This document shows positions 46,566 to 64,000 of a stretch of DNA of 64,000 nucleotides, piece by piece. The DNA lies in contig NZ_JABEMC010000002.1 in the NCBI RefSeq assembly GCF_013004595.1, positions 62,001-126,000 on the forward strand, read 5' to 3'. Position numbers and translations under genes: made by a program. Source of the DNA: Brevibacterium luteolum. GTDB lineage: Bacteria; Actinomycetota; Actinomycetes; Actinomycetales; Brevibacteriaceae. The notes beneath the pieces are model-generated. The model saw only the letters and a list, made by a program, of their open reading frames with translations. It was not told where the DNA came from and made no database searches. Every line of letters starts with the position of its first letter. The first letter of the stretch is position 1.

Positions 46566-46576
46566 GCCTATATTAT

Positions 46577-46590
46577 CGCCCAAAACGGTC
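46577..46590 (-). promoter_or_regulatory. Candidate operator of toxin-antitoxin pair 1
   Basis: On the minus strand GACCGTTTTGGGCG, 11 bases before the antitoxin ATG, matches GAGCGTTTTGAGCG upstream of pair 2 at 12 of 14 positions. The following GATAAT likely is the -10 box, so binding here would block transcription. Confidence 0.5.
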
Positions 46591-46694
46591 AAATCAGCCA
46601 TATCGACCATACCTTCGGATGCAGAACCGCATCTTTGACCAGACGCCAGAGCGCCACAAGCGCAGGCGTCCGTGGCGGGTGTCACACTGGTGCC

Positions 46695-47522
46695 ATGACG
46701 AACGAATCTGCCACCACCGCCTCGGGACCGGCCACCACTGATGCACCTGTCACTGTCACCGTCGAGGGCGCGGTCGCCCTCGTCATGATCGATGCCGCCC
46801 AGACCCGCAACGCCCTGTCGATGCCGGTCATGAGTGCGCTCATCGACGCGCTCACCGAGATCGGCGAGCGCACCGATGTGCACGCTGTTGTGCTCTCGAC
46901 TGCCGGGCACGTGTTCTGCTCCGGCCACGATCTCAAGGAGATCCGCGGGGCCGACCATGCCCGGCAGCAGGAGATCTTCGAGCGCTGCTCGCAGCTCATG
47001 CTGCTCATCCAGTCGATCCCGCAGCCGGTCATCGCCGCTGTCCAGGGTGTTGCCACGGCGGCCGGCTGCCAGCTGGTGGCCACCTGCGATCTCGCAGTCG
47101 CTGCCGAATCAGCCCGGTTCGGCACCCCGGGTGTGCGCATCGGGCTGTTCTGCTCGACGCCGATGGTTGCGCTCTCGCGTGCGGTGCCGCGCAAGACGGC
47201 GATGCGGATGCTCATGACCGGTGACCTGCTCACCTCCGAGGAGGCGATGGGGTTCGGGCTCGTCTCCCATGTCGTGGCTGATGACGAGCTCGCCGCTGCC
47301 GCCTCGGAAGTGGCGCAGAAGGTCGCCGAGGCCTCGGCTGCGACCGTGGCGATCGGCAAGGAGGCGTTCTACCAGCAGATTCACCTCGATACGCCGGGCG
47401 CGTACGCGCAGATGTCAGAGACGATGGCCGCCAATGCCGTCATGCCCGATGCGCAGGAGGGCATCGATGCATTCCTGACGAAGCGCCAGCCGCAGTGGCA
47501 GCACCGCACGGACGGCACCTGA
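46695..47522 (+). CDS. Crotonase-family protein (ECHDC3-like), catalytic Glu residues missing
   Basis: The 275-residue protein has the crotonase fold: the oxyanion-hole blocks AGHVFCSGHDLKE and QPVIAAVQGVATAAGCQLVATCDLAVA, then FGTPGVRIGLFCS and a C-terminal trimerisation region. Where enoyl-CoA hydratase carries its two glutamates (GCEL and PEI patterns), this protein has GCQL and PGV, so classical hydration is unlikely. It is closest in layout to ECHDC3-type relatives. The start at 46695 precedes an unconserved Ala/Thr/Ser-rich N-terminus containing one dispersed motif copy. The frame extends upstream into the divergent promoter region, without support. Confidence 0.82.
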   Translation: MTNESATTASGPATTDAPVTVTVEGAVALVMIDAAQTRNALSMPVMSALIDALTEIGERTDVHAVVLSTAGHVFCSGHDLKEIRGADHARQQEIFERCSQLMLLIQSIPQPVIAAVQGVATAAGCQLVATCDLAVAAESARFGTPGVRIGLFCSTPMVALSRAVPRKTAMRMLMTGDLLTSEEAMGFGLVSHVVADDELAAAASEVAQKVAEASAATVAIGKEAFYQQIHLDTPGAYAQMSETMAANAVMPDAQEGIDAFLTKRQPQWQHRTDGT

Positions 47523-47565
47523 TCCAGGTCGCGGGACGGACTGCTGAGCTTGGTCGCGAACCGGG

Positions 47566-49059: not shown

Positions 49060-49137
49060 GCCTCCAGGCTATGGACGGGCACCGGCCGTGCGGTCACAGC
49101 GATGTGCCGGTTCGGGCACACCGTCTGCAAGCGGCGA

Positions 49138-49176
49138 CCACCGCCTCGGGAACGGGAGAACCACCTCGGGAACGGG
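49138..49176. repeat. Direct repeat of the dispersed CCTCGGGAACGGG motif, two copies
   Basis: CCACCGCCTCGGGAACGGG and CCACCTCGGGAACGGG lie 20 bases apart in the intergenic DNA before the epimerase gene. They are the clearest pair of the dispersed family. Confidence 0.75.
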
Positions 49177-49267
49177 GTGCTCAGGGGAGTCACAGCAGAC
49201 ACGGCGCGGGCAATGACGGCAGGCCGCGGGCGGGCGCATTAGCCTGATCGCAAGGAGAGGAGTCGAA

Positions 49268-50224
49268 GTGAGAGTCGTCGTCACGGGTGCTGCCGGTTAC
49301 GTCGGTCAAGCGATCGCCCGCAGGCTGGCCGAATCCGGTCGCAGGGTCACGAGCGTCGGGCTGGCCGACCCGCAGATCAGCGGGGTCGAGCACCACGAGT
49401 GGGACATCCGCGAGGAGATTCCCCAGCAGCTGCGGGGCCGGCTGCGCTTCACCGATGCCGTCGTCCACGCTGCGGTCATCGACGACGACTGGGCGCGCGA
49501 GGACGAGCTGCAGGCCGTCAACGTCACCGGCACCCGCCATGTGCTCGACGCGTTCCCCAAGCCGCGGATGATCTGCCTGTCCAGCACGGCCGTCTACGCG
49601 CCGGCCGATGCGCACCGCTACCTGTACGAGGAGGGCGGGCCGGTCGACCCGGACCGGTACCTGTGCGCCTATGAGCGCATCCTCGCCGAGGCCGAACGGG
49701 TCATCGCCCGGGTGCGGCCCGAAGCGCTCGTGCTGCGCCCGAACGCCGTGTACGGGCCAGACGATACGACGCTGTGGCCGATCCTGGAGCGGATGGCCGA
49801 CGGCGGTGTGCTCAAGCTGCCGGCAGGCGGGCGGCACACGATGACGATGACGCACATCGACACGCTCACCGCAGCCGTCGATGCCGCGCTGACGAAGCCG
49901 GAGGCCTACGGGCCGATGAACATCGGCGACCCGCAGCCCTATGTCGTGCACGAAGCGCTCAACACCTACCTCGGGCGGTTCGGCCACCCCTCGCTCGAAC
50001 TCGACACGATCGCCGCCGACCTTGCGCTTGTCAAGGCGTGGTTCGCGGAGCGCAAGGCGCGCCGGAAGAAGCGCCGCCCGCCGTACACCCGGCATGCGAT
50101 GCGGAATCTGGCTCGGGAGCGGACGTACAGTCTGTCGCGGATGCACCGGATGCTCGGGATCGAGGGTGTGCAGGGGCTGCGCCGCTCGGGTGCGGCTGCC
50201 GGGCGGGTGCCGCGACGCGACTGA
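49268..50224 (+). CDS. NAD-dependent epimerase/dehydratase-like protein with altered active site
   Basis: This 318-residue extended SDR starts with a nucleotide-binding TGAAGYVGQAI and contains LSSTAVY and the substrate-region block RPNAVYGPDD. At the active-site YxxxK the sequence is YERIL (within LCAYERILAEAERV), so Leu stands at the catalytic Lys. The C-terminal 70 residues are very basic (KARRKKRRPP) with a terminal extension. The GTG start has GAGGAG five bases upstream. It may be a non-catalytic or divergent homologue; the substrate is unknown. A terminator follows directly. Confidence 0.78.
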   Translation: MRVVVTGAAGYVGQAIARRLAESGRRVTSVGLADPQISGVEHHEWDIREEIPQQLRGRLRFTDAVVHAAVIDDDWAREDELQAVNVTGTRHVLDAFPKPRMICLSSTAVYAPADAHRYLYEEGGPVDPDRYLCAYERILAEAERVIARVRPEALVLRPNAVYGPDDTTLWPILERMADGGVLKLPAGGRHTMTMTHIDTLTAAVDAALTKPEAYGPMNIGDPQPYVVHEALNTYLGRFGHPSLELDTIAADLALVKAWFAERKARRKKRRPPYTRHAMRNLARERTYSLSRMHRMLGIEGVQGLRRSGAAAGRVPRRD

Positions 50225-50254
50225 GGGGCCCGCCCAGGTGGGCAGACCCCTCAG
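50221..50254. terminator. Bidirectional terminator between epimerase and DUF6458 genes
   Basis: CTGAGGGG and CCCCTCAG close an inner GCCCA/TGGGC stem with a small loop. It overlaps the epimerase stop and lies 25 bases from the end of the convergent DUF6458 gene. Confidence 0.65.
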
Positions 50255-50278
50255 TGTCTGTGGTGCTGGTGACGCGGC

Positions 50279-50455
50279 CTAGAGCTGGCGGCGCCGGTTG
50301 GCCATGGTGATGAAGGCCAGCAGCAGCGCGAGAACTCCGACGCCGATGCAGATGTAGCCGACCATCGTCAGGTCCATGACGCTCCAGGCGTCTCGGACGG
50401 CGAAGGCCAGGATCGCGCCGATGAGGATGAGGAAGACTCCGACTCCGAATCCCAT
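50279..50455 (-). CDS. DUF6458 family small membrane protein
   Basis: The 58-residue protein reads MGFGVGVFLILIGAILAFAV, a short polar turn (RDAWSVMDLTMVG), a second helix (YICIGVGVLALLLAFI) and a basic end (NRRRQL). This is the exact layout of DUF6458, a two-helix family common in actinobacteria with no known function. GGAG lies about eight bases before the ATG. It is short and easily overlooked; size and pattern make it convincing. It is convergent with the epimerase gene. Confidence 0.85.
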   Translation of the reverse strand: MGFGVGVFLILIGAILAFAVRDAWSVMDLTMVGYICIGVGVLALLLAFITMANRRRQL

Positions 50456-50639
50456 GGGTTGCTCCGTTTCTGTCGCGCCGGAGCGCTGATCGCGCCCGAC
50501 TCGGTCAGTTTCAGTATTGACGAAGTGCCCGCCTGAGACAACGACCCGGCGGAGTTTGGTGATGACAGGTGTGCAGGCACCGGTGATCTGAGTCGTTTCG
50601 GATGCATCTGCGGTGCCCGAGGTGCCGGTCGCGGGGATC

Positions 50640-51893
50640 TCAGACGGCGGGCTGGGAGTGTCGGTACTGGTCAGGGGGGTCGCGGAAGATCGGGCAGCTC
50701 ATGCAGCGCGGCCCGCCGCGGCCGCGGCCGAGTTCGGTGCCGGCGATCGGGATGACATCGATGCCGTGCTCGGCCAGCAGCGTGTTGGCACCGGTGTTGC
50801 GGGCGTAGGCGATGACCGCACCAGGAGCGACGGCAAGCACATTGAGGCCGTCGTGCCACTGCTCGCGTTCAGCAGCGTAGGGGTCCTGGTCGGGGACGAG
50901 GACGCGCATCCTCTCGCGGCCGAGCGCCTCGGCCATCGCTGAGTGCATCTGCGCGGCCGGATAGTCGGTGATCGACAGCTCGCCTGACTGGCTGCCGGGG
51001 GTGATGAGGTAGGACGGCAGCGGGTCGAGGCCGCCGTAGCAGAGGAAGGTCCGCTCATCGACCATAGTCATGACGGTGTCAAGGTGCATGAACGACCGCC
51101 GCTCAGGCATCCGCAGCGCCAGCACCCGTTCAGCCGCTCCTGCGGTCATGAGGGTGCGGGTGAGCCGTTCGACCCCGGCTGGGGTGGTGCGCTCGCTCAT
51201 CCCGATCATGACCGCGCCGTTGCCGAGGACGAAGATGTCGCCGCCTTCGGTGGTTGCGATCCCGGATTCGCCGCCGGCACTCCAGTGGGCGAAGCCGGCG
51301 GCTGCGAAGCGGGGATGCCAGCGGTAGACGGCCTCGTAGCTGATGGTCTCGCGTTTGCGGGCGCGCTTGCGCATCGAGTTGATCGCCACCCCACCGTAGA
51401 TCCAGGCAGAGGCGTCGCGGCTGTAGAGGTGGTTGGGCAGCGGCGGCAGCACGAAGTCACCGTCATCCAGGTCGGCCAGCCACAGCGAGCCGGGCACTGC
51501 AACGCGGTCGACCACCTCGCGTTTGGTGATCCCGCCGATGAGCACCGCGGTGAGCCCGGTGGCATCCATGGCCGCGAGCATCTAAGAAAGCGGTGCGGCC
51601 GCGACTGGGCCGCAGGCACGCTCGTCGACGACCGCCTCAAGCACGGCGGTCTTCGCCTCGGGCACTGTGAGGGTTTCGGCGAGCAGGTCGCTGAAGAGGT
51701 GGACGGTGACTCCGGCCTCGCGCAGGGCTGTGATGAAGCCGTCGTGTTCGCTGCGGGCTACTTCGGCGAAGGGCACGTCGTCGAAGAGCAGTTCGCCCAT
51801 ATTGCTCGGGGTCAGCCGCTCCAGCTCGATGCCGGGCCGGTGCACGATGACCTCCCGCAGCCGCCCGGTCTCGGAGCCGACCCCCAGCGTCAT
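50640..51893 (-). pseudogene. arcA: Arginine deiminase gene interrupted by an in-frame TAG
   Basis: The 418-codon frame covers a whole arginine deiminase, which turns arginine into citrulline and ammonia. All expected blocks are present: TGRLREVIVHRPG, DDVPFAEVARSEHDGF, the His/Glu block [37 protein letters not shown], and the catalytic Cys in CMSCPIFRD. But codon 104 (51584-51582) is TAG, between PVAAAPLS and [17 protein letters not shown], and the frame continues without shift. A single G to T change in GAG would create it. The downstream part could restart at the ATG just after the TAG but would lack the N-terminal active-site segment. It follows pheA by one base, so it would be co-expressed. 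Confidence 0.9.
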
Positions 51894-51894
51894 C

Positions 51895-52824
51895 TCAGCC
51901 CCGGATCGCCGCAAGCCACTCGTGGGCGGCGGTGAAGGCCTGGGCGGTCATATCCGGGTCGACGACGACCTTCTCCCCATCAGCCGAGGGGTAGGAGCCG
52001 AGGAACTGCAGACGGCGGGCGATCCGGTGCACGCCGGCCAGCGCCTCGGCCATCCGCGGTTCGGCCACATGCCCCTGCGCGTCGATGGAGAACTGGTAGA
52101 GGCCCAGCCCGTCGCCGGTGGGCCGGGATTCAATGCGTGAGAGGTTGACCCCGCGGGTGGAGAACTGCTCCAGCAGCTCCAGCAGCGCACCGGCCCGGTC
52201 CGAGGCGAGCGCGGCGACGAGCGTCGTCTTATCCGCCCCGGTGGGTTCGGGCAGTTCGCGTTTGGTGGAGACGAGCACGAACCGGGTGTCGGCGTCCTTG
52301 CGGTCGCCGATGTCGTCGGCGAGCGCCGTGAGACCGTAGCGTTCGGCGGCCAGGGCCGGGCAGATCGCGACCTGGTAGTCGACGTCCGACTCTGCGAGGT
52401 CGCGGGCGGCGGCCGCGGTTGAGGCGGCGGGGATGTAGTGGGCGGCCGCCAGGTTCTCAGACAGCCAGGCCCTCGTCTGCGCTTCGGCGTGCGGGTGGGT
52501 GGAGAACGCGGTGACGTCGGCAAGCTCGGTGCCGGGTTTGACGGCGAGGACGAAGCGCACGCGCACGACGGTTTCGGCCACGATCTGCAGCTCGTCGTGC
52601 TGGGTGAGCGCGTCGAGGGTTGCCGGCACGCCGCCTTCGAGTGAGTTCTCGATCGGCACGACCGCGCCGGTCAGCTCGCCTGCGGCCACGGCGGCCAGGG
52701 CGGCGTCGGCGCTGCGCATGGGCGTGCGGACAGCGTCCATCCGGTCGTGGGCGGTGAGCAGCTGGATGAGTGCGGCCTCGGTGAAGGTCGCCTCGGGTCC
52801 GAGGTAGCCGAAGGACAGGGTCAC
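51895..52824 (-). CDS. pheA: Prephenate dehydratase
   Basis: The 309-residue protein converts prephenate to phenylpyruvate in phenylalanine synthesis. The catalytic domain has GYLGPEATFTEAA, VVPIENSLEGGVPATLD, and the TRF motif (DTRFVLVS). An ACT regulatory domain follows, with GVNLSRIESRP, where phenylalanine binds. GTG start with AAAGGAG nine bases upstream. The stop lies one base before the arcA start. A glycosyltransferase gene precedes it on the same strand. Confidence 0.95.
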   Translation of the reverse strand: MTLSFGYLGPEATFTEAALIQLLTAHDRMDAVRTPMRSADAALAAVAAGELTGAVVPIENSLEGGVPATLDALTQHDELQIVAETVVRVRFVLAVKPGTELADVTAFSTHPHAEAQTRAWLSENLAAAHYIPAASTAAAARDLAESDVDYQVAICPALAAERYGLTALADDIGDRKDADTRFVLVSTKRELPEPTGADKTTLVAALASDRAGALLELLEQFSTRGVNLSRIESRPTGDGLGLYQFSIDAQGHVAEPRMAEALAGVHRIARRLQFLGSYPSADGEKVVVDPDMTAQAFTAAHEWLAAIRG

Positions 52825-52849
52825 AGTTGTGGTCTCCTTTCGGGGCGGG

Positions 52850-53605
52850 TCAGCGGGTGCCGCGCCCGAGGCGGTGACGGGCTCGGCGGGCCCGGCGCAC
52901 CGTGAGTGCTCGGAGCACGTCGCGGTACTGGGCGGCCCGGTGCAGCTGGGCCTTGAGGTCCTTGCCGGTCACCCGGTGGTGGAGGTCGCATTCGACCTCT
53001 TCGACGCGCAGCCCGGCGTCGAGGACGTCGATGGTCATGGCGGTCTCGACTCCCCAGCCGGCGGCGAACGGCAGGGCGGCTTCGAAGGCCTCACGGCTCA
53101 GACACCGCATGCCCGATAACGGCTGGGTGGCCTCGAAGCCGGTGAGCTCGGCGATGCCCTTCTTCGCCAGGCCGACGACGAACCCGAATCCGCCGCCGGA
53201 GCGCTTCTGCGGCGGCAGGATCGCAATCGTCATATCGGCCTCGCCGGCGAGCACCGGTGCGGTCAGAGGTGCGGTGGCGACGGCGGAGTCCTCCAAGTCG
53301 GCGTCGATGAACAGCAGCGCCCGGTGCTCTGGCTGCTGGCCGGTGGGCGCTTCAGTGATCTCGCGGTTGCGCACGGCGAACGCGCCCGTCATCATCGCTG
53401 CGGCCTTGCCGCGGTTCTTCCGGTGCACGAGCACCTGCGCCCCGGCCTGGCGGGCCAGGTTCGCGGTGTCGTCGGAGGAGCCGTCGTCGACGACGATGAC
53501 GAGGTCGACACCGGGGATCTGCCGGGTGGCGGCCACGGTCGCGGCGATCCGCTCGGCTTCATCCTTGGCCGGGATAATCGCGGCGACAGCTGTGGGTGCA
53601 GACAT
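52850..53605 (-). CDS. Family 2 glycosyltransferase
   Basis: This 251-residue GT-A enzyme has IIPAKDEAERIAATV, the nucleotide-binding VVDDGSSDDT and the metal-binding DADLED, with the acceptor part containing LSGMRCLSREAF. There are no membrane helices, and length resembles small glycosyltransferases including glucosyl-3-phosphoglycerate synthase-like proteins, but the exact donor and acceptor are not clear. AGGAGG lies nine bases before the ATG. It is followed 25 bases later by pheA. The basic C-terminus (RRARRARHRLGRGTR) includes a near-copy of the dispersed motif. Confidence 0.85.
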   Translation of the reverse strand: MSAPTAVAAIIPAKDEAERIAATVAATRQIPGVDLVIVVDDGSSDDTANLARQAGAQVLVHRKNRGKAAAMMTGAFAVRNREITEAPTGQQPEHRALLFIDADLEDSAVATAPLTAPVLAGEADMTIAILPPQKRSGGGFGFVVGLAKKGIAELTGFEATQPLSGMRCLSREAFEAALPFAAGWGVETAMTIDVLDAGLRVEEVECDLHHRVTGKDLKAQLHRAAQYRDVLRALTVRRARRARHRLGRGTR

Positions 53606-53640
53606 CGGATCCTGCCTCCTGAGGTGCAGCGGGCGGTGGG

Positions 53641-54522
53641 TCAGCGGATGGTGAGCTGGCGGGAGACGACGCCGGCCTTGGCGCGGCGTTCGTCGTAGTC
53701 GAGACTGCCGGACTCGTTCATCGCGGCATCGAGCTTCTTGGCGAACTCGCCCAGCGGCTCTTCGACCGCGTCGGGCTGGGTGCCGTCGGGCAGCTCCCAG
53801 ACGGGGATGACGATGCCGTGGGCGCGGAAGCAGCCGAGGTAGCGGCCGAGCCCGGAGACGGTGTTCTCGCCGCGGGCGTGCAGGCGGGCCAGGCCGTTCA
53901 TGACGGTGTCCTCGTCCTGCTTCTGCGCCCAGCGCAGGTAGATGTGCCCGCCCATCTCGGTCCAGTATGCGGAGTCGGCGGAGACGAGCTTCTCCGTCGG
54001 GCTGATCGACTCGTTGGCCTGTTCGAGCGCACCGGCGAGGTCCTCATCGCGGTGCTCGGGGTCATCGGCGAGCCAGTAGTCGAAGGTCTCCTGCACGCTG
54101 ACGGTGAAGGGAGCAGAGGTGTCGAGGATGTCCTGCAGTCGCGGGCCGGAACCGGGGTTGGCGTTGGCCTCAGCGTAGGTGCCGGGCTCGGCGTCCTTGA
54201 CCTTGAGGATCGCTGCGGCGATGTCGCGGGAGGGATCCGGGGAGGCGACCGGGACCTGCATGCCGGCCATGATGACGCCGTCCTGGCGGTGCAGTGCCTG
54301 CCAGGCCGCCGGCAGCAGCGAGGCGATGACGATCTCGCCGCCGCCGTGCTCCTCGTTCAGCTTCGCAGTCGCGGTCGCGGCGGGCACGAGTTCGCGCAGG
54401 CACACGAGGTCGGCTTCGAATGGCAGGCCCTCGAAGGGGCGCTTGACGAAGCCGGCGGCCTGCTGTTTGGCCAGGCGCTTGGCGATGAGCTCTTCCTTGG
54501 ACTTCTTGGACTTCTTTCCCAT
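53641..54522 (-). CDS. DUF5926 family protein
   Basis: This 293-residue protein starts MGKKSKKSKEELIAKRLAKQQ, a very basic opening, followed by PFEGLPFEADLVCLRELVPAATAT, the characteristic DUF5926 block. It is conserved in actinobacteria, probably soluble, and of unknown function. The Lys-rich N-terminus may bind nucleic acid, but that is a guess. The frame is open for 16 more codons, which overlap the divergent GNAT promoter region and give unconserved residues. Divergent from the acetyltransferase gene with only about 46 bases between starts. Confidence 0.88.
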   Translation of the reverse strand: MGKKSKKSKEELIAKRLAKQQAAGFVKRPFEGLPFEADLVCLRELVPAATATAKLNEEHGGGEIVIASLLPAAWQALHRQDGVIMAGMQVPVASPDPSRDIAAAILKVKDAEPGTYAEANANPGSGPRLQDILDTSAPFTVSVQETFDYWLADDPEHRDEDLAGALEQANESISPTEKLVSADSAYWTEMGGHIYLRWAQKQDEDTVMNGLARLHARGENTVSGLGRYLGCFRAHGIVIPVWELPDGTQPDAVEEPLGEFAKKLDAAMNESGSLDYDERRAKAGVVSRQLTIR

Positions 54523-54568
54523 GCCGGTCAGTGTATCGCCCGCACCCGGTGCCGATATCGTGGGTCTC

Positions 54569-55126
54569 ATGGCTCTCCTCCACTCCGGACTCCACGATTC
54601 CGCCGTCGCCCAGCGCCATCTGCGCTACGCCCAGCGGCTCGTCGACGCCGGCTACAGCTTCGACCTGCTCACTGCCGATGACCACGGCCCCGCTGCCGAG
54701 GTGCTGCGGGCTGCCGAGGCGACCGGAGCCTCGGGCGCGGACTTCGCGTTCCTTCCGCAGGACTCCGGGCTCATCGCCCGGTCCGCCGATGGGCAGATCG
54801 CCGCCGTGCTCGCCGTCACCGCGGTGAGCTTCGACAACGGCCAGGCGCTGCTCATCCGGGCGCTGGCCACCGCCGAGGAGTTCCGCTCGCAGGGGCTTGC
54901 CACGGTGCTGGCGGGCATGGCCCCGCAGGTGCTCTCGGCTGCCGGGCTGCCGACCCGCTGCCTGCTCGTGGCCTCCGCTTCCGAGGCGCGGGCCACGTTC
55001 GCACACCGGGCCGGGTTCCGCGTACTCACCCCAGGCTCGGAGCTGCCGATCGACCTCGGCGGCATCGAGACCGACGTCTTCGGTGAGATCGGCGACCGGT
55101 GCTGGTGCCTCAAAGAAGTGAAGTAG
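54569..55126 (+). CDS. GNAT-like N-acetyltransferase
   Basis: The 185-residue protein shows a GNAT acetyl-CoA site (LATAEEFRSQGLATVLAGMAPQVL) near residues 90-110, followed by strand and helix elements (LLVASASEARATFAHRAGF) typical of the fold. The N-terminal part (HSGLHDSAVAQRHLRYAQRLVDAGYSF) is family-specific. The frame extends far upstream, but only because it runs antisense to the DUF5926 gene; the ATG at 54569 gives a compact protein. Substrate unknown. Confidence 0.72.
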   Translation: MALLHSGLHDSAVAQRHLRYAQRLVDAGYSFDLLTADDHGPAAEVLRAAEATGASGADFAFLPQDSGLIARSADGQIAAVLAVTAVSFDNGQALLIRALATAEEFRSQGLATVLAGMAPQVLSAAGLPTRCLLVASASEARATFAHRAGFRVLTPGSELPIDLGGIETDVFGEIGDRCWCLKEVK

Positions 55127-55139
55127 AGCGCAGAGGGCC

Positions 55140-55157
55140 TGAGCGTTTTGAGCGTTT
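55140..55157 (+). promoter_or_regulatory. Tandem 9-base repeat, candidate operator of toxin-antitoxin pair 2
   Basis: TGAGCGTTT is repeated exactly twice, 19 bases before the antitoxin ATG. Its core GAGCGTTTTGAGCG resembles the site upstream of pair 1. A -10 box TAGAAT (55164-55169) follows and the ATG starts six bases after it, so the transcript may be leaderless. Confidence 0.6.
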
Positions 55158-55175
55158 CTCGAGTAGAATGAGGAT

Positions 55176-55577
55176 ATGGCTGGAGCAACGAAACACGAGC
55201 GATCCTCAGAGCTGCGCGACGTCGTCGACGAAGCTTTGGACACGATGCCGAATCTCACTGACAATGTCCGGGCAGCATTCGGCAGGCTCATCGACGTGCT
55301 CGAATCCAGCGGCGACGCCGTCGTGTTTCCCGCCGAGGCGTCGCTCTCCACGACTCAAGCAGCCGACCTTCTCGGTGTCAGCCGAATGACAGTCGTGCGA
55401 CTCATCGACCGCGGCGAACTCCACGCAGACACCAGCTCGGTGCACCGCCGTATTCCGGTGTCGGAGCTGAAGCGCTACCAGACCGAATTCCGCCGCCGAC
55501 AGCGCACGGCAATGAGTGAGCTTGCCGAGGACATCACCGCGACCACGCCCGCCGACCGGGTGATCGAAACCCGGTGA
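55176..55577 (+). CDS. Excisionase-type HTH antitoxin (pair 2)
   Basis: This 133-residue protein has helical N-terminal segments and an excisionase-like helix-turn-helix (LSTTQAADLLGVSRMTVVRLIDRGELHADTSSVHRRIPVSELKRY), strongly similar to the antitoxin at 46059. Its stop overlaps the GTG of the PIN gene (GTGA), a typical toxin-antitoxin coupling. The charged C-terminus (EFRRRQRTAMSELAEDI) likely wraps the toxin. It lies behind two tandem 9-base repeats which may be its binding site. Confidence 0.85.
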   Translation: MAGATKHERSSELRDVVDEALDTMPNLTDNVRAAFGRLIDVLESSGDAVVFPAEASLSTTQAADLLGVSRMTVVRLIDRGELHADTSSVHRRIPVSELKRYQTEFRRRQRTAMSELAEDITATTPADRVIETR

Positions 55578-56146
55578 GTGCAACGAAATCAGGCAGCGCT
55601 CCTGCGGTCGTCCTCGATGCTTGCACATTGGTGCCCATCAGACTCGCGACGACCTTACTTTGGCTGGCAGAAGCCGGAATCTTCGAGCTGCTCTGGTCCG
55701 AGCAGATCCTCGGCGAGGTGCAGCGCACGCTCCCCAAACTCGGCCTCAGCCCTGAACGAGCTGAGCGGCGCGTTGGCTCCATGCGGTACGCGTTCGGGGA
55801 AGCGGCACTTGTCGACGACTTTGACCACCTTATTCCTGCTCTGACATGCGATCCAAAGGACCGACATGTGCTAGCCGCAGCCGTGCGCGCAGAGGCTGAT
55901 CTCATCGTGGCGTTCAACCTCAAGGACTTCCCTGCCGAAGCTGTGTCCGGCCGAGAAATCGATGTCGTACATCCGGATACGTTTCTGACCGCTCTGGTCA
56001 CAGAGAATCCTGTCGTTGTCATCAAGGCAGTTGAACGCGGTTGCGCCGAGCTGAAGGATCCGCCACAGACCGCCTTGCAGTTCCTAGCGTCGCTCGCCTC
56101 GACTGTTCCGGCTTTCGCCGATACGGCTGCCGGTGAAATCAGATGA
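55574..56146 (+). CDS. PIN-domain toxin (pair 2)
   Basis: At 190 residues this toxin has the PIN strand-1 Asp in VVLDACTLVPI (Asp15), an acidic EQILGEVQRTL helix, and the central DPKDRHVLAAAVRAEADLIVAFNLKDFP, where Asp residues complete the metal site. The C-terminal helical half (FLASLASTVPAFADTA) corresponds to that of toxin 1. Its GTG overlaps the antitoxin stop. PIN toxins cleave tRNA or mRNA. All visible catalytic acids are present, unlike toxin 1 whose N-terminus lacks a start codon. Confidence 0.87.
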   Translation: MSATKSGSAPAVVLDACTLVPIRLATTLLWLAEAGIFELLWSEQILGEVQRTLPKLGLSPERAERRVGSMRYAFGEAALVDDFDHLIPALTCDPKDRHVLAAAVRAEADLIVAFNLKDFPAEAVSGREIDVVHPDTFLTALVTENPVVVIKAVERGCAELKDPPQTALQFLASLASTVPAFADTAAGEIR

Positions 56147-56304
56147 GAAATCGAGTTCTGTGTTTCCACACGTCTTATCTCGCCCCCCCATCATCGAGAT
56201 GTCTTGGCCTGTAAGCAGATGTGACCCCTACTGCCAGGAATTGAAACAGTCACGGGTGACGGCGGGTTGATCCTGATTTCGGAGTCAGCCCGGGCAATAC
56301 AAAA

Positions 56305-56342
56305 GCCCCGGGCGCATGCTGAGGCAGAGGCAACACCGGGGC
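56305..56342 (-). terminator. Terminator of MFS gene 56367-57542
   Basis: GCCCCGG (56305-56311) pairs with CCGGGGC (56336-56342) over a 24-base loop. On the minus strand the stem is followed by TTTTGTATTG, a U-rich tail, 25 bases after the MFS stop. Confidence 0.6.
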
Positions 56343-56366
56343 GTTCGCTTCTATTGTAATGCGAGC

Positions 56367-57542
56367 TCATTCGGTTCGGCCCTTCCAGTTGCGCAGCGCA
56401 ATGGCGCCGACTGCGACGGCGGCGATTGCGGCAATCACCACCCCGATGACAAGTGCTGATTGGGCTGGAACTCTCTTGACAGCTACTGCGGGTGCCGCAG
56501 CGCTCAACCCGTACCCGAGGCCGCTGAGTGAGTACAGCAGAGAGAAGCCCACGACGTGCAGATCGGGTCTCAGCTGCTGACGCAGCGTCAGATTGCGCGC
56601 GACGATACACACCGACTGAGCGACTCCTACGACGCACAGCAGGACGGGAAATGCTGGTGTCGACACGCTCAGGCCCGCTGCTCCTGCAGCGACCGTCATC
56701 ACTGTCAGGGCCAACCAGCTGTGCGCGGCAGGTGCGCCTGGGATCCTCAGCCAGCCGTACAACAGCACCCCGCCGATGCTGGCGATGGCCATCGCTGAAA
56801 GCAGAACACCGGCACGCGCTGGGTTCTCTCCGCTGTCGACGAGCATGGCCGACAGCAGCAGCTCCACGAAGGACACGATGCTCATCGCGAGACCTGCGCT
56901 GATGAAGATCGGCCAGAGGACTGAAAGCGATGCCCACCGCGTTGTTCCCGGTGCTTCACGCACAGGCTTCTGGACCGCCGTGGCTTCGGGCATGACCCGA
57001 ACGGAGACGGCACCAGCAAGCAGCAGCAGTCCGCACACGGCGAATACCGCCCGCGGTGACAGTGAGAAGCTGAGCGCGGCGACGAGTGCGGGCGCGACGG
57101 CCCAACATGCCATCGTCACACCGACTTCGAGGCTGAACGACCGGTGCATCTGGTCGCCGTGCACGATATTTCCCACCCCTGTCCGCAGCACTCCGGGAAC
57201 TGCCGCCGCTCCACCGCCGGCCAACACGGCGATCAGCCAGGCCGCTGGTTGCACTGCGCCGCCCAGGATCGCGACCGTTGAGTAGGCGCCTGCGCTGAGG
57301 AGCAGACCGACAGTCGCTTCTCGTCGGAAGTACGCGGGACTCAGCCGCACTCCGAGCAGCGGAGCACAGCAGGCTTCAGCCACAGCGAAAAGTCCGGCCA
57401 ACACGAGTCCGTGAGCGTACGAGTCGAGGAGCTGGCTTCCGAGGAAGGCCATCGCAAGAGGTGTCATCGCCACCGGCAGTCGCGTCGCGGCGATGCTCAC
57501 CAGCCAGATGACGTACTCGAGTCGTGCTGAACGTTGCGTCAT
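56367..57542 (-). CDS. MFS transporter, unassigned subfamily
   Basis: This 391-residue protein has about twelve hydrophobic segments and no long soluble part. The loop between helices 2 and 3 (GVRLSPAYFRREATVGLLL) replaces the usual MFS motif A with a variant. The second half carries SGENPARAGVLLSAMAIASIGGVLLYGWL, in the place of the internal-repeat motif A. The start has only a weak ribosome-binding site. No neighbours hint at a substrate; it is separated from the small regulator gene by 55 bases on the same strand, so they could share a transcript with the regulator first. Confidence 0.8.
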   Translation of the reverse strand: MTQRSARLEYVIWLVSIAATRLPVAMTPLAMAFLGSQLLDSYAHGLVLAGLFAVAEACCAPLLGVRLSPAYFRREATVGLLLSAGAYSTVAILGGAVQPAAWLIAVLAGGGAAAVPGVLRTGVGNIVHGDQMHRSFSLEVGVTMACWAVAPALVAALSFSLSPRAVFAVCGLLLLAGAVSVRVMPEATAVQKPVREAPGTTRWASLSVLWPIFISAGLAMSIVSFVELLLSAMLVDSGENPARAGVLLSAMAIASIGGVLLYGWLRIPGAPAAHSWLALTVMTVAAGAAGLSVSTPAFPVLLCVVGVAQSVCIVARNLTLRQQLRPDLHVVGFSLLYSLSGLGYGLSAAAPAVAVKRVPAQSALVIGVVIAAIAAVAVGAIALRNWKGRTE

Positions 57543-57597
57543 TGCACCGTCAGCACAGCCGCACTCACTCCGCGATCACCTGCACCGAGTCGCTGTC

Positions 57598-57891
57598 TCA
57601 GCTGCGCTCACCGCTGAGGATTGCCTCACGTGCTGACTCCATGAGCGCTGCTGGCTTCCCCGCCCGATCTCGGCTGAGCTGGCGATGGGCCGCAGGAAGG
57701 TCTTGCATCAACCGCGACACCGTCGACTTCGGAATCTGTGTCATGCGGGCGATCTCCCGGACGCCGACACCGGCATCAGCAAGCCTACCGATCGCCTCAA
57801 GTTCTATCTCCTTAGCTGCGACTGTGACAGCCTCGTGATAGACCCGAGCGCGCTGGCACGCACTCACGAGCGGCTCCCATTCCTCCACCAC
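57598..57891 (-). CDS. Small helix-turn-helix regulator (stand-alone)
   Basis: The 97-residue protein has an N-terminal helical part and a helix-turn-helix (LADAGVGVREIARMTQIPKSTVSRLMQDLP) of the resolvase/homeodomain-like type, then a short basic tail. No ligand domain is visible. I start at the GTG at 57891, which has GGAGGG five bases upstream; longer frames read over operator DNA. Two TGTCCC/GGGACA palindromes lie 23-66 bases upstream of the start, between it and the divergent MFS gene, so autoregulation and control of the exporter are likely. No family name can be given with confidence. Confidence 0.72.
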   Translation of the reverse strand: MVEEWEPLVSACQRARVYHEAVTVAAKEIELEAIGRLADAGVGVREIARMTQIPKSTVSRLMQDLPAAHRQLSRDRAGKPAALMESAREAILSGERS

Positions 57892-57913
57892 GCTGACCCT
57901 CCATCTCCTCAAC

Positions 57914-57957
57914 TGTCCCACGCGGGACACTGCTACATTACTGTCCCACGTGGGACA
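57914..57957. promoter_or_regulatory. Two 16-base operator palindromes in the regulator-MFS divergent region
   Basis: TGTCCCACGCGGGACA (57914-57929) and the perfect palindrome TGTCCCACGTGGGACA (57942-57957) lie 28 bases centre to centre. The AT-richer bases between them (CTGCTACATTAC) contain a -10-like element on either strand. Paired near-identical palindromes suit cooperative binding of dimers. Confidence 0.8.
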
Positions 57958-58104
57958 GCGGCCGTCAAGAGCCCTAATCCAGCGAGGGGTGCCGGACGCG
58001 TGCGTGACCGTCTTCACGCCCGCACCATCGGCGAATCGGGAATAGGCTTTCAGGTGTGCTGGTTGGCGCAGAGTCCACCGCACCACCACCGGCAAGGAGC
58101 CCAT

Positions 58105-59328
58105 ATGCCTGCAGCAGCGCCGCCCGCACGCGCAGCGGTCAGCCCGCTGGAGGCCAAGCTCGCCGTGTTCGCCCTGGCGATCGGCGCCTTCGGCATCGGC
58201 ACCGCCGAGTTCGCCACGATGGGCCTGCTGCCGCAGATCGCCGAGGGCCTTAACGCCTCAATCACCCAGGCCGGTCATGCGGTGTCGCTGTATGCGCTCG
58301 GCGTCGTCATCGGCGCACCGGTCATCACTGCGTTGGCGGCCAAGATAGACCGCCGCTGGCTGCTGCTGAGCCTCATGGTCGTCTTCATCGTCGGCAGCGT
58401 CGGATCGACCCTGGCCCCGACGATGCACCTCATGCTCGTCTCCCGATTCATCACCGGCCTCCCGCACGGTGCGTTCCTCGGCGTCGGCGCCGTCGTCGCC
58501 GCAACCCTGGCACCAGCGCACCGCAAGGGCACCGCAATGGCCCGGGTGATGCTGGGTCTGACGATCGCGAACATCATCGGTGTCCCCGCCGCTGCCGCAC
58601 TCGGCACGGAGTTCGGCTGGCGGGTCGCCTATGCGCTCGTCGCGTTCATCGGCCTGCTGACCCTGGTGGCCGTGTTCTTCCTCGTCCCACAGACCGCGCC
58701 GGCTGCAGCACCGTCGATCCGCGGTGAGCTGCGCACCATGAAGCGCCCACAGGTGATCCTCACCCTCATCGCCGGATCGGTGGGTTTCGGCGGCATGTTC
58801 GCTCTCTACACCTACATCGCACCGACCCTGACCGAGCTCACCGGGCTGCCCGCCTCGGTGATCCCATGGGTGCTCGTGTGCTTCGGGGTCGGCATGACCG
58901 TCGGCACCTTCGTCGCAGGCCCGCTCGTCGATCGGTCGATCGAGCGCTCGGCTGTCATCGGGCTCGTCGGCCTGGGCATCGTGCTGCTGACCTTCGGGCT
59001 GTTCGCCCACGTGCCGGCGTTGGCGATCGGCTGCGTGTCGGTCATCGGCATCTTCAGCTCACTGTTCGTCACTGCCCTGCAGGCCAGGCTCATGCGCGAA
59101 TCCCACGACGCGCCCTCGTTGACTGCGGCGATGAACCATGCGGCATTCAACTTCGCCAACGCGCTCGGCGCGTTCGCCGGCGGCATCGTCATCGACGCCG
59201 GACTCGGCTTCCGCGCACCAGCGCTCACCGGTGTCGGGCTGACCGTCGTCGGGCTGGTCGTCACGACGATCGCGATCACCACCTACCGCCAGTCACGCGC
59301 CCGTCAGGTCATCGACGTCGAAGGGTGA
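58105..59328 (+). CDS. MFS drug/metabolite exporter, DHA1 family
   Basis: This 407-residue twelve-helix protein belongs to the DHA1 exporter group (AraJ/CmlR-like). AIGAFGIGTAEFATMGLLPQIA at helix 1, the motif-A-like AAKIDRRWLLL loop, the RFITGLPHGAFLGVG block and GVPAAAALGTEFGWRVAY (motif C-like, with Gly-rich kinks of proton antiporters) support this. The ATG at 58105 has AGGAG seven bases upstream; a longer frame reads the operator region and is discounted. Divergent from the small HTH gene, with shared operators. Export of a drug or arabinose-like sugar is inferred only. Confidence 0.88.
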   Translation: MPAAAPPARAAVSPLEAKLAVFALAIGAFGIGTAEFATMGLLPQIAEGLNASITQAGHAVSLYALGVVIGAPVITALAAKIDRRWLLLSLMVVFIVGSVGSTLAPTMHLMLVSRFITGLPHGAFLGVGAVVAATLAPAHRKGTAMARVMLGLTIANIIGVPAAAALGTEFGWRVAYALVAFIGLLTLVAVFFLVPQTAPAAAPSIRGELRTMKRPQVILTLIAGSVGFGGMFALYTYIAPTLTELTGLPASVIPWVLVCFGVGMTVGTFVAGPLVDRSIERSAVIGLVGLGIVLLTFGLFAHVPALAIGCVSVIGIFSSLFVTALQARLMRESHDAPSLTAAMNHAAFNFANALGAFAGGIVIDAGLGFRAPALTGVGLTVVGLVVTTIAITTYRQSRARQVIDVEG

Positions 59329-60159
59329 GTGGTCTGCGGCGCTCAACCGTGCGCACTCGTCCATCAGCTGCCGCACCCCGACAGCGAAAGCACGTTCAGC
59401 TTCTGTATGAAATCCCGTTTGAGCGATCACGTTGTCAGCCGCGCGAATCAGTTCGGCTTGCATCTGACCATCGGGTAGCGTGACGGCAGCCAGGCACACC
59501 TGCTCGACGTCTTCGACAAGCTCTTCAACATCTATGGCCAGATCATATTCTGGATCGGCCCGATGCCGACTGTGATCGATTGGCAGCAAGCGGAAGTTCG
59601 GGCAGTGTTCGCAGAGGAGTTCTTCTGCTCGCTCACGCAGTTTCACGACTTCTTCGTCAAGCACTGATCCGTCTGGAGCGACTGCGAGAATCAGCGTTCT
59701 GTCCGAAAAGTGTCCTCCGCCCAACGCTCGCGACACACCTGCTGTGGCGATCGTTCCAGCCAGCACACATACACCGAAGACCGGCAGCCAGAAAACCGCA
59801 ATCTCCGAGGGCCGGTCAGCGACGCCTTCGCTGGTGAGCATGTGGAGCCACGGCGCTGAATGCACCGGAGACACCAGCAAGACCACTCCCACGGCTCCGA
59901 GCCCGGTCAGCGGCAGCGTACCTCGTACCGTTGAGAAGGAAGCTGCACCGGCGAACAGACCACATCCGAACCCGGAAAGCATCATCCAAGCGAAGAAAGT
60001 GATGAACCCACCGACGATTGGCTCGACTTCGAGCGCAACTGTCAGCGGGTCGGGTGCGGTCACGATTGACACAGCGACACTGCTGAGACCATAACCGGTT
60101 GCAGTGACGACAAACAACGGCGACCATGACGGGATCAGCCACCGCTTCATCAACCGCAT
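59293..60159 (-). CDS. Membrane protein with C-terminal cytoplasmic domain, unknown function
   Basis: The 288-residue protein has four hydrophobic segments in its first 150 residues (near 12-32, 48-68, 80-100 and 122-145), then a soluble 140-residue part with acidic helices (VEELVEDVEQVCLAAVTLPDGQMQAELIRAADNVI). I recognise no family. GAGG lies eight bases before the ATG. Its 3' end overlaps that of the convergent MFS gene by 36 bases. Codon pattern and length support a real gene. Confidence 0.7.
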   Translation of the reverse strand: MRLMKRWLIPSWSPLFVVTATGYGLSSVAVSIVTAPDPLTVALEVEPIVGGFITFFAWMMLSGFGCGLFAGAASFSTVRGTLPLTGLGAVGVVLLVSPVHSAPWLHMLTSEGVADRPSEIAVFWLPVFGVCVLAGTIATAGVSRALGGGHFSDRTLILAVAPDGSVLDEEVVKLRERAEELLCEHCPNFRLLPIDHSRHRADPEYDLAIDVEELVEDVEQVCLAAVTLPDGQMQAELIRAADNVIAQTGFHTEAERAFAVGVRQLMDECARLSAADHSPFDVDDLTGA

Positions 60160-60287
60160 AGGCCAATCCTCACAATGTCAGACGTCAGTGAGATCACTAT
60201 ACTCACGACGATCCGTAACTGGCCGCCGTTGAGGGCCCTCCATCGGTTGACCGCCAGCCGGGTGTCTCACCGCCGGCCGATACCACT

Positions 60288-61421
60288 TCACTTCCCGCCG
60301 GTGATCTCCGCGTACAGCGCTGCGAGCAGATCCTTGACCCGGGTGTCGACATCCTCTGACTGCATCTCATTGGTGAGGAACGAGAACGCGATCCCATGCT
60401 CGGGCCAGGCGCCGTGCAGTCCCCCGCCGGCCCCGGAGTGCCCGAAGGCCGCCTCGACCGGCCCGTAGGCGCCGATCGGGTCGGCGAGTTCGAACCCAAG
60501 GCCGAAGCGCAGCGGCCGGTCGTTGATCGCATCGATCCCCTCCGACCAGGTGCGGGTGAACACCTCACGCGTCTGCCGGGAGAGGATTGCGCCGTCTGCC
60601 AGCAGCAGCGCGTAGAACCGCGCCATCGACTCCGCTGTCGCGATGCCACCGCCGGCGGCCTGCTGGGCGGCATGGAAGGCGCGGGTGTTGAACGGGCTGT
60701 CCCCGGAAAGCAGCAGCCCGGCGTACATCCGGTCGACGATCGCCCGGCGCTCGGGGTCGTCATCGAGGAACGTCGAGACCCGATAGCCGGCCGCCTGGTG
60801 GATCGGCGCAACCCGGTCCTCCAGCTCCGCAGGCAGCCCGAGGTGGATGTCGAGGCCGTGCGGGCCGGCGATGCGTTCGGCGATGAGCTCGCCGACATCA
60901 GCGCCGGTGACCCGCCACACGAGCTCGGAGAGCAGATAGCCATAGGTGATCGCATGGTAGGCGACCTTGGTGCCTGGTGACCACAAAGGCTGCTGGGCTG
61001 CGAGCCGGCTGGCCATGAGCCGGTTGTCGTACTGCTCGCCGGGCCCGGCCGGATCCGGGTCGACATAGGGCAGCCCGACCGTGTGATTCAAAAGCTGGCA
61101 CACCGGCACTTCGTCCTTGCCGGCAGCCGCGAACTCCGGCCAGTACCGGGCGACGGGTGCCTCGACGTCGATGAGCCCGTCATCGACGAGCATCCCGACG
61201 ACGGCTGCGGCCAGGCCCTTCGTCCCGGAGAACAGCACAGCCATCGTCTCCGGCGTCCACACCTCGGGCGCAGCAGCCCCGCCACGGCAGGTGTGCCCGC
61301 CGGCCAGGCTGCAGATGAGCTCGCCGTCGCGGCACACGGCGAACGCCATGCCGCCGCCGCTTGCGCGCACGTGCCGGTCGAAGACCTCGGCGACAGAGCC
61401 GGACTCAGAGGCTGGGGACAT
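60288..61421 (-). CDS. Serine hydrolase, beta-lactamase/D-aminopeptidase/esterase family (class C-like)
   Basis: This 377-residue protein has the class C-like catalytic set: Ser-x-x-Lys in LFSGTKGL, a YxA-type motif in VAYHAITYGYLL, and FGHSGAGGGL (HxG-like) near the C-terminus. No signal peptide is seen, so it is likely cytoplasmic, where relatives are esterases or D-peptide amidases. The start overlaps the 3' end of the ABC ATPase gene by 17 bases, so it belongs to the transport operon and may process imported peptides or esters. Substrate is inferred. Confidence 0.85.
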   Translation of the reverse strand: MSPASESGSVAEVFDRHVRASGGGMAFAVCRDGELICSLAGGHTCRGGAAAPEVWTPETMAVLFSGTKGLAAAVVGMLVDDGLIDVEAPVARYWPEFAAAGKDEVPVCQLLNHTVGLPYVDPDPAGPGEQYDNRLMASRLAAQQPLWSPGTKVAYHAITYGYLLSELVWRVTGADVGELIAERIAGPHGLDIHLGLPAELEDRVAPIHQAAGYRVSTFLDDDPERRAIVDRMYAGLLLSGDSPFNTRAFHAAQQAAGGGIATAESMARFYALLLADGAILSRQTREVFTRTWSEGIDAINDRPLRFGLGFELADPIGAYGPVEAAFGHSGAGGGLHGAWPEHGIAFSFLTNEMQSEDVDTRVKDLLAALYAEITGGK

Positions 61422-63345
61422 TGGTCAGCAACTCCTGTGTGTACGTGTGCTGCGGGTTCTCCAGCACCATATCGACCGGGCCGTCATCGACGATCCGGCC
61501 GCCGTTGAGCACCGCCACGCGGGAGGCGATGTGGCGGGCAAGGGCGATGTTGTGGGTGACGAAGAGCATCGCCAGACCGCGTTCGTCCTGCAGGGTGCGC
61601 AGCAGCGAGATGATGCTGGCCTGCACGGACACATCGAGGGCAGAGGTGATCTCATCGCAGATGAGGACGCTGGGCATGTTCACCAGGGCGCGGGCGATCG
61701 CCGCACGCTGCCGCTCACCACCCGACAGGTCACCCGGGCGCCGGTCGTGGAACTGGCGGCCGAGCCGCACCGCATCGAGGGCGTCCTTGACCTGCTCGCG
61801 GCGTTGGGCGGCACTGAGCCCACCGGCCATCTCCAGGGGCACGGCCAGCGATTCGCCGATCGTGCGCCGGGGATTGAGTGAGGAGAACGGCGACTGGAAG
61901 ATGTACTGGATGTCGGTGCGCTGGCCGATGCTGCGCTGCCGCGTCGAACGCGCGATCGTCTCGCCACGGTAGATGACATCGCCGGTGTAGCCGTCGTTGA
62001 GGCCTGCGATCGAGCGCGCCAACGTCGTCTTGCCGGAACCGGATTCACCCAGCAGGAGGGTGCACTCCCCGGCCTGCAGGTCGAGGTCGATCGATTTGAG
62101 GATCGTCTTCGGCCCGTAGCTCAGGCCCAATCCGCGCACCTGCAGCACCGCATCGAGCGCCGGCGCCGTCGGCTGCGGCTCGCCCACCTGGTTTGCCGTC
62201 GTCGCCCCGCCCGTACCCGAGGTGCCTGTCGCTGGGCTCGCGGTACCGGCGGTGCCGGACTCTGGGCTCGCGGTGCCGGTTTCCGAGCCCGAGGCGGTGG
62301 CCGCCTCGGCGGCGGGGCTTGCGTGGGTGGCATCGGTGGTGAGCAGGTGGGTCTTCTGGCTCTTCTCAGCGTCCTTGGCTCTGGCTTCGGCGGCGGCCTT
62401 CTCGTGCTCTGGCACGTCAGCGCGTTCGAAGTCGCCGATCCGGTTGCGTCCGGCCAGATCCGGCACGGCAGCCAGCAGCGTCTTCGTGTAGTCGTGCTGG
62501 GGGCGTTCGAGCACATCGGCGCATGAGCCGTGTTCGACGATGCGCCCGCGCAGCATCACCGCGATTCGGTCGGCGATCTCTGCCACGACGGCGAGGTCGT
62601 GGGTGATGTAGAGGCCGGCCACCTTGTTGCGCACGGTCATCTCGCGGATGGTGTCCAGCACCTGCGCCTGGGTGGCGACGTCGAGGCCGGTGGTCGGTTC
62701 GTCGAGGACGAGCACATCGGGATACATCGCAAAGGCCATCGCAATCCCGATGCGCTGCTGCTGCCCGCCTGAGAGCTGGTGCGGCCAGCGCCGCTGGTAG
62801 GCCTCGTCATCGGGCAGGCCGACTTCGCGCAGCACCTGACGGACCCGCTCGGCGCGTTCCTCGGCGGAGGAGCCGAAGCCGTGGATGTCGAGGACCTCGC
62901 TGATCTGCTCGCCGACGCGCATGCCGGGGTTGAGTGAGAGCGCAGGATCCTGCGGAATGTAGGACACCCGCGCTCCGCGCAGCTGCCGCAGCGTGGCATC
63001 GGGCAGGGCGGTCATCTCCGCCGGTTCGTCGGCATCGGAGGGGTAGAGCCACACGGTGCCGCCGGCATGGGTGAGCCCGGTGCGGAAGTGGCCGAGCACC
63101 GCGAGCCCGACGGTCGTCTTGCCCGAGCCGGATTCGCCGACAAGCGCGAGGATCTCCGAGGGTTTGAGGTCGAGGTCGACGTCGGTGATGACGTCGGCTC
63201 CCGAGGCGGTGGCGGTGATGTGCAGATCGTCGATCTCGAGGACGTTGCCGCCCTCCTGTGCCCGCGCGTGCCAGGCTGAGGAGCGGCGCGCAGACGGGCT
63301 GACCGTGGCGATGCTGCCGGTGGAAGTCGTGTCGAAGCTGCTCAT
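61405..63345 (-). CDS. Peptide/nickel-type ABC transporter, fused double ATP-binding protein
   Basis: The 646-residue protein carries two oligopeptide-family ATPase domains: first with Walker A GESGSGKT, signature LSGGQQQR and Walker B VLVLDEPTTGLD; second with GESGSGKT, LSGGERQR and VLICDEITSALD, where Walker B ends in I-T after the Glu instead of P-T. A long Ala/Ser/Thr/Gly-rich linker (about 90 residues) joins them. Its ATG overlaps the permease stop (ATGA), and a serine hydrolase gene follows. It is paralogous to the protein at 9414 but with a different linker. Two dispersed motif copies lie in the linker and N-terminus. Confidence 0.91.
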   Translation of the reverse strand: MSSFDTTSTGSIATVSPSARRSSAWHARAQEGGNVLEIDDLHITATASGADVITDVDLDLKPSEILALVGESGSGKTTVGLAVLGHFRTGLTHAGGTVWLYPSDADEPAEMTALPDATLRQLRGARVSYIPQDPALSLNPGMRVGEQISEVLDIHGFGSSAEERAERVRQVLREVGLPDDEAYQRRWPHQLSGGQQQRIGIAMAFAMYPDVLVLDEPTTGLDVATQAQVLDTIREMTVRNKVAGLYITHDLAVVAEIADRIAVMLRGRIVEHGSCADVLERPQHDYTKTLLAAVPDLAGRNRIGDFERADVPEHEKAAAEARAKDAEKSQKTHLLTTDATHASPAAEAATASGSETGTASPESGTAGTASPATGTSGTGGATTANQVGEPQPTAPALDAVLQVRGLGLSYGPKTILKSIDLDLQAGECTLLLGESGSGKTTLARSIAGLNDGYTGDVIYRGETIARSTRQRSIGQRTDIQYIFQSPFSSLNPRRTIGESLAVPLEMAGGLSAAQRREQVKDALDAVRLGRQFHDRRPGDLSGGERQRAAIARALVNMPSVLICDEITSALDVSVQASIISLLRTLQDERGLAMLFVTHNIALARHIASRVAVLNGGRIVDDGPVDMVLENPQHTYTQELLTNVPSL

Positions 63346-64000
63346 TGCTCACCTACATTCGATGTGGCCGAGGCCCGTGCGATCGAGTCGGCGATGAGGT
63401 TCGTGCCGATGGTCAGCAGTGCGATCGCTGCCACCGGCAGAAGCACACCCCAGGGCTGGATGGACAGTGCGATGCGGTTCTCGTTGATCATCAGGCCCCA
63501 GTCGGCGGTCGGCGGCTGCATGCCCAAACCCAGGAAGGACAGCGAAGCGATCGCACCGATCGAATATGTCAGGCGCAGGCCGGCCTCAACGGCCATCGGG
63601 CCGGTGATGTTGGGCATGATCTCGCGGGTCAGCAGCCGCAGACGCGGCATCGCGTACATTTCGGCCGCCCGGATGTAGTCCTCGTTGATGACTCCGAGAG
63701 TGGCCGAGCGGGCCACGCGTGCGATGCGCGGGGCGTGGGTGATGCCGATGACGGTGATGAGCACCCAGCCCCGAGGCCCGAGCACGGTGATCGCCAGCAG
63801 CGCGAAGACGAGCTGCGGAATCGCCAGCAGTACATCGTTGCTGCGCATGATGAGCGAGTCGAGCCAGCCGCCGGTGTAGGCCGCGGTCATCCCGAAGAGC
63901 ACGCCGAGCACCAGGCCGATGAGGGTGGCGAGCAGCGCGTAGAGGAGGAGCGTCAGGCCGCCGCCGATGAACCGGGTGAAGACATCGCGTCCGAGGTTGT
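63342..64000 (-). CDS. Peptide/nickel-type ABC transporter permease, DppC-like (5' end outside window)
   Basis: The frame runs from the stop at 63342 through the window edge. It reads NLGRDVFTRFIGGGLTLLLYALL, the DppC entry block, then the membrane domain with ARIARVARSATLGVINEDYIRAAEMY (the EAA-like coupling region) and LGLGMQPPTADWGLMI. About 220 residues are visible; the N-terminal membrane helix and start lie beyond. It overlaps the ATPase gene by four bases. The matching DppB-like and binding-protein genes are presumably to the right. Confidence 0.9.
   Translation of the reverse strand, partial: NLGRDVFTRFIGGGLTLLLYALLATLIGLVLGVLFGMTAAYTGGWLDSLIMRSNDVLLAIPQLVFALLAITVLGPRGWVLITVIGITHAPRIARVARSATLGVINEDYIRAAEMYAMPRLRLLTREIMPNITGPMAVEAGLRLTYSIGAIASLSFLGLGMQPPTADWGLMINENRIALSIQPWGVLLPVAAIALLTIGTNLIADSIARASATSNVGEQ

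Follow-up and report, generated by a model that had tools for sequence, protein, structure and literature searches.

Regulators of the TetR, MarR, and PadR types are local autorepressors of efflux genes, while TrpR is an all-helical repressor of 107 amino acids that binds tryptophan. The stretch of DNA analyzed in this study (64,000 nucleotides from Brevibacterium luteolum, contig NZ_JABEMC010000002.1, positions 62,001 to 126,000; referred to as the window) contains a gene for a 97-residue HTH protein on the minus strand, and a pair of palindromes lies between this gene and a plus-strand MFS gene at 58105. We consider it probable that the regulator and a second MFS gene behind it form a two-gene exporter cassette that was acquired horizontally and is autorepressed, with the divergent MFS gene remaining outside the circuit. 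The relevant features are listed below in window coordinates, together with their counterparts in a close relative (genome G010; the genome of the window is G000, and L009 is an 8-kb stretch of G010).

56367 to 57542, minus strand: MFS transporter gene (391 amino acids), the putative second gene of the operon, linked to the regulator here and in G010
57598 to 57891 (stop codon included), minus strand: gene for the single-domain HTH regulator (97 amino acids), with a GTG start that agrees with the G010 relative
57898 to 57902, minus strand: GGAGG, the likely ribosome-binding site of the regulator, 6 bases ahead of the start codon
57914 to 57929, no strand assigned: putative operator 2, TGTCCCACGCGGGACA; its counterpart in G010 is L009 1421-1436
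57940 to 57945, minus strand: GACAGT, a likely weak -10 element (three of six bases match TATAAT)
57942 to 57957, no strand assigned: putative operator 1, TGTCCCACGTGGGACA; its counterpart in G010 is L009 1448-1463
57963 to 57968, minus strand: TTGACG, a likely -35 element absent from the consensus scan; its counterpart in G010 is TTGACC (L009 1470-1475)
58041 to 58048, plus strand: AATAGGCT box, which probably serves the divergent MFS gene as a promoter element and does not belong to the cassette
58105 to 59328, plus strand: divergent MFS gene, which is common across the genus and judged to be outside the control of the regulator

The two palindromes were found exactly where the sequence-only reading had placed them (57914-57929 and 57942-57957), with starts 28 bases apart, and operator 1 becomes a perfect 18-bp palindrome (57941-57958) if one flanking base per side is added. 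The exact motif TGTCCCNNNNGGGACA matched twice in the window (mean over shuffles, 0.01), and the genome-wide search that had been proposed as a check located it at these two sites only in 2,965,761 bases (2.97 Mb). Two exact sites were also present in G010, and none in each of four other members of the genus that were searched. On the other hand, a scan allowing three mismatches does not discriminate, since its four strand matches (shuffle mean of 1.36) were equalled by 12 of 100 shuffles. When 57892-58104 (213 bases) was shuffled 20000 times with dinucleotides preserved, a repeated perfect palindrome of the 6+4+6 form, which was picked after the sites had been seen, did not occur once. The gap between the operators was 12 bases in the window and 11 in G010, a difference of one base that argues against a strict cooperative geometry. 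As the corresponding spacings between centres (28 and 27 bases) do not correspond to whole helical turns, two independent dimers on the predicted operators appear more likely than one rigid complex. In the texts accessible to a full-text literature search, nothing was tied to the regulator or its operator.

The regulator had originally been assigned to 57598-58104; these coordinates belong to a frame of 168 residues that runs back through the operators. The most likely gene extends from the GTG at 57891 to the stop at 57598, because the G010 protein begins at the same residue and the GGAGG sequence is present at 57898-57902. A consensus promoter scan of 56100-58150 listed no promoter, including the one proposed here, and the assignment was, therefore, based on position and conservation: TTGAC directly precedes operator 1 in both species, GACAGT overlaps the end of that operator, and the distance between the two putative elements is 17 bases in the window and 18 in G010. 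The operators had been proposed to bracket the promoter. With the elements placed as above, operator 1 would instead overlay the -35/-10 spacer and four of the six bases of the -10 element, while operator 2 would lie just past the likely start site, spanning roughly +5 to +20 of the predicted transcript. Such a layout over the -10 region and the transcript start would be as for an autorepressor.

The AlphaFold2 model of the regulator, with an input alignment of two rows only, was all-helical, with five helices (residues 6-39, 44-51, 55-63, 65-76, and 81-93) and a mean pLDDT of 91.5; the second and third of these correspond to the HTH. No separate ligand domain was found in either the Pfam scan or this model, which consists of the five helices only. 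With Foldseek, neither the PDB nor the viral search gave a match at E ≤ 0.001, and VIA-align gave Z values of up to 5.4 (HetR, DeoR, sigma region 4, Tc3, and resolvases), which are too low for assigning the protein to a fold family.

Relatives of the regulator were rare. In the genus, 4 of 57 genomes including its own gave a match, which was full length only in the genome of the window and in G010; G001 and G026 matched over 59 and 55 residues, respectively, inside longer frames, and a search of the family (60 genomes) returned the same four. Among 396 genomes of the order, a full-length relative was again confined to G000 and G010, while the other 9 of the 11 matching genomes showed partial HTH matches, which were not counted, and all nine were without the operator pair. 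Matches in the phylum (6 of 396 genomes) and in the class (4 of 394) were, besides the window, only partial HTH matches in longer frames, and G010 was not among the matching genomes listed there. Since scoring was limited to 12 candidates per genome in the order search and to 11 in the phylum and class searches, weak relatives may be missed at these counts. Matches on contigs L003 and L004, obtained in a genome-contig scan with six exact peptide patterns that reaches close relatives only, looked like chance, lying by eye on frames of unrelated proteins.

The full-length relative in G010 shared 56% identity, and its recognition region was almost the same (IPKSTVSRL in the window and IPRSTVSRL in G010). 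The operator arms were likewise nearly unchanged: TGTCCCAGGTGGGACA (L009 1421-1436) and TGTCCCACGCGGGACA (L009 1448-1463) stand ahead of the regulator gene in G010. Relatives had been expected to carry similar palindromes, and the pair was present in the one full-length relative on which this was checked, so that the proposal was not refuted. When the order was scanned for two such palindromes separated by 8-16 bases, the pair was present in 2 of 396 genomes, G000 and G010, the same two that have a full-length relative, which supports the earlier description of a minimal local regulator with paired operators. In a BLASTN comparison of window positions 45001-64000 with L009, the single match was 20 bases over an operator, and this operator thus stands out from DNA that is otherwise unaligned at that sensitivity. 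Because just two members are known, the conservation of the regulator/operator pairing rests on one comparison.

Similar linkage was found for the downstream MFS gene at 56367. Matches to its product at E ≤ 1e-20 occurred in 2 of 57 genomes of the genus, G000 and G010, and in none of the other 55; in each of the two genomes with a full-length regulator, this relative adjoins it. The control of this gene by the regulator, which the sequence-only reading had regarded as possible, is backed by the linkage in both genomes, and the two genes may be co-transcribed, with some uncertainty because the gap between them is 55 bases in the window and 229 in G010. The protein scored 30.1 with MFS_1 in Pfam, below the cut-off of 33.4, had no match at E ≤ 1 among PDB sequences, and showed no significant similarity to the MFS protein of 58105 in BLASTP. 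In G010, the gene was split: the start of contig C1 encodes residues 11-240 and the end of C2 residues 230-377, and the tips (C1:1-73 and C2:96142-96191) do not match. This suggests that another element was inserted, and the gene may be non-functional there because it is split between two contig ends; no second copy of the C1 tip was found in the G010 assembly, so a repeated element is not shown. Distant relatives (32-34%) were present on four plasmid records, two of which were examined: the Streptomyces gene lies beside a PGM1-related peptide ligase gene, and that of Curtobacterium beside anthranilate synthase and isochorismatase genes. These biosynthesis-type neighbours weakly fit a role for the 56367 protein as a natural-product exporter.

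The cassette occupies different chromosomal places in the two close relatives. The flanks of the window aligned with the C22 locus of G010 in BLASTN at 92.8% (50932-55152) and 95.2% (58153-64000), and a patch at 56033-56160 at 82.8%; 56161-58152 gave no match to this locus, which carries the divergent MFS gene, and by eye ATCGGGAATAGGCT is common to the window and the G010 locus within this otherwise unmatched segment. Conversely, the genes beside the G010 cassette were found, 93% identical and without the cassette, on contig C18 of the genome of the window. The regulator (56%) was, therefore, far more diverged than the shared flanks, and, from this divergence and the different places in close relatives, we infer that the cassette was acquired horizontally; it is probably mobile, as a small self-contained regulatory unit.

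Several neighbouring features were also noted. The segment 55176-56146 of the window contains overlapping frames for HTH_17- and PIN_3-domain proteins, which probably form a toxin-antitoxin pair next to the cassette; at the G010 locus, the only match found was a stretch of 128 bases corresponding to the end of this segment. On C22 of G010, a MerR-type gene (L052 6635-7450, minus strand) takes the place of the window's toxin-antitoxin-like pair and cassette; this spot next to the conserved MFS gene is variable. Further along the window, 60288-61421 encodes a beta-lactamase-fold protein (PF00144, 231.6 bits), next to what by eye is the ATPase of a dipeptide-type ABC transporter (61405-63345).

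We compared this reading with three others. The regulator, lying between both divergent MFS genes, might control the two together, as had originally been suggested. The operators do occupy the shared intergenic region, 147 bases upstream of the ATG of 58105 and 83 bases upstream of the AATAGGCT box, and this box is not universal, being missing in 3 of 30 loci (L023, L024, and L025), which are those of the next nearest relatives after G010. However, the 58105 gene was matched at E ≤ 1e-60 in 52 of 57 genomes of the genus and the full-length regulator in only two; among the 30 upstream loci examined (the window's own included, from 75 listed matches to the 58105 gene), the pattern [AC][AC]TAGGCT was present in 27 and its reverse in none, whereas the palindrome was present in one, the window itself. 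In G010, the orthologue of 58105 (96% identical) is on contig C22, a different contig from the regulator, where its neighbour is a MerR-type regulator gene and neither the cassette nor the palindromes are present, and no MFS gene was seen across the operators in the ORF list or among the MFS matches. Control of the divergent gene is, therefore, not supported, and we regard the joint control of both genes as very unlikely.

A second alternative, that the protein activates the MFS operon, or represses only its own gene while the MFS gene has a separate promoter, would accommodate the variable gap between the two genes (55 and 229 bases). The linkage of regulator and MFS gene in both genomes speaks against it, as do the operators, which lie over the putative -10 element and start and not upstream of the -35 element, a repressor layout, and no separate MFS promoter was found in 56100-58150 by the scan, which also misses the promoter proposed here; we consider this alternative unlikely, although less so than the others. 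Slightly more doubtful is a third, in which the regulator and palindromes are a mobile-element relic (control of partition, replication, or transposition from a plasmid or phage), with the MFS gene as a passenger. In its favour, the HTH gives sub-cut-off scores with transposase and resolvase models, two close relatives have the unit at different places, and a viral contig bears an array of TGTCCCAASTGGGACA-like repeats; set against these, the regulator had no match in 72,556 plasmid records (E ≤ 1e-5), in 50,697 phage records (E ≤ 0.01), or in the IMG/VR scan, the MFS gene accompanies it in both genomes, and no recombinase or replication gene was seen between the junctions in the ORF list, in which only the MFS and HTH frames were family-searched. 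The array on that IMG/VR contig (L051 6840-7030) consists of TGTCCCAASTGGGACA and TGTCCCAACAGGGACA repeats just past the 3' end of a minus-strand gene, by eye a primase/helicase with an HTH-like C-terminus, and perhaps represents phage iterons or operators. It was rejected as a relative: the likeness is in the arms TGTCCCA only, and a search of that collection found no relative of the protein.

In the autorepressed cassette, our preferred reading, the 97-residue protein would, as a dimer, occupy the two TGTCCCNNNNGGGACA operators, which would overlap its own promoter and transcription start, so that the bound protein would block RNA polymerase. Repression would hold down the two-gene unit, namely, the regulator and the MFS exporter behind it, while the divergent MFS gene would use its own promoter outside the circuit. 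The two closely related species would have acquired the cassette separately, or from diverged donors. Repression would most likely be relieved by a hydrophobic substrate of the exporter binding in the small helical domain, as in TrpR; since TrpR senses within 107 residues, the lack of a separate ligand domain is compatible with sensing. Pure negative feedback with no inducer would be the second possibility. A bolder proposal, which we put forward tentatively and think rather improbable, is an unnamed class of single-domain, ligand-sensing repressors, in which five helices in 97 residues serve DNA binding, dimerisation, and drug sensing, and which travels with an MFS exporter and an operator pair.

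The locus is a clean case of a regulator-operator-exporter unit, the likely regulon of which is readable from the genome: each of the two species has two exact sites and one operon. Direct sensing of a drug by the small domain would make it a very compact sensor, of use in biosensors; with no sensing at all, it would be a minimal feedback limiter of a transporter. In either case, the general kind, a local autorepressor with an exporter, is already well known.

Among the known families, the HTH of the regulator exceeded the Pfam cut-off of IclR-type PF09339 (cut-off of 22 bits; 28.2 in the window and 26.6 in G010) and was the one HTH found; however, the match covers only 28 of the 52 positions of the model, all in the HTH, and the C-terminal effector-binding domain of the IclR family was not found in this protein of 97 amino acids. 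A similar HTH is present in resolvases, and serine recombinase/resolvase chains were among the weak fold matches (Z 3.9-4.6); with HTH_38, the G010 protein passed the cut-off (28.4 vs 27 bits), whereas that of the window did not (24). HTH_7 (16.1 vs 23.8) and HTH_23 were likewise below their cut-offs, and, unlike serine resolvases/invertases, no N-terminal catalytic domain was present in the Pfam scan. TrpR was similar in size and gave a weak fold match (6fal; Z 4.3, 2.8 Å over 50 residues), with a Z value in the range of common arrangements, and was absent from the three matches at E ≤ 1 of the regulator in the PDB sequence search. Differences from TetR, PadR, and MarR were also evident in sequence: no TetR or PadR model was listed at E ≤ 1, MarR_2 was below its cut-off (22.6 vs 27), and a separate ligand domain was lacking. 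The local autorepressor of an exporter operon is a way of working and not a sequence family. Conserved palindromes over the regulator's own putative promoter were found, in two members only, and the exporter was linked in two of two genomes, with the G010 copy split at contig ends. The present locus resembles the TetR-, MarR-, and PadR-type autorepressors in that a small HTH regulator adjoins an exporter-like gene, palindromic operators lie over its own likely promoter, and the exact sites are confined to the local operon.
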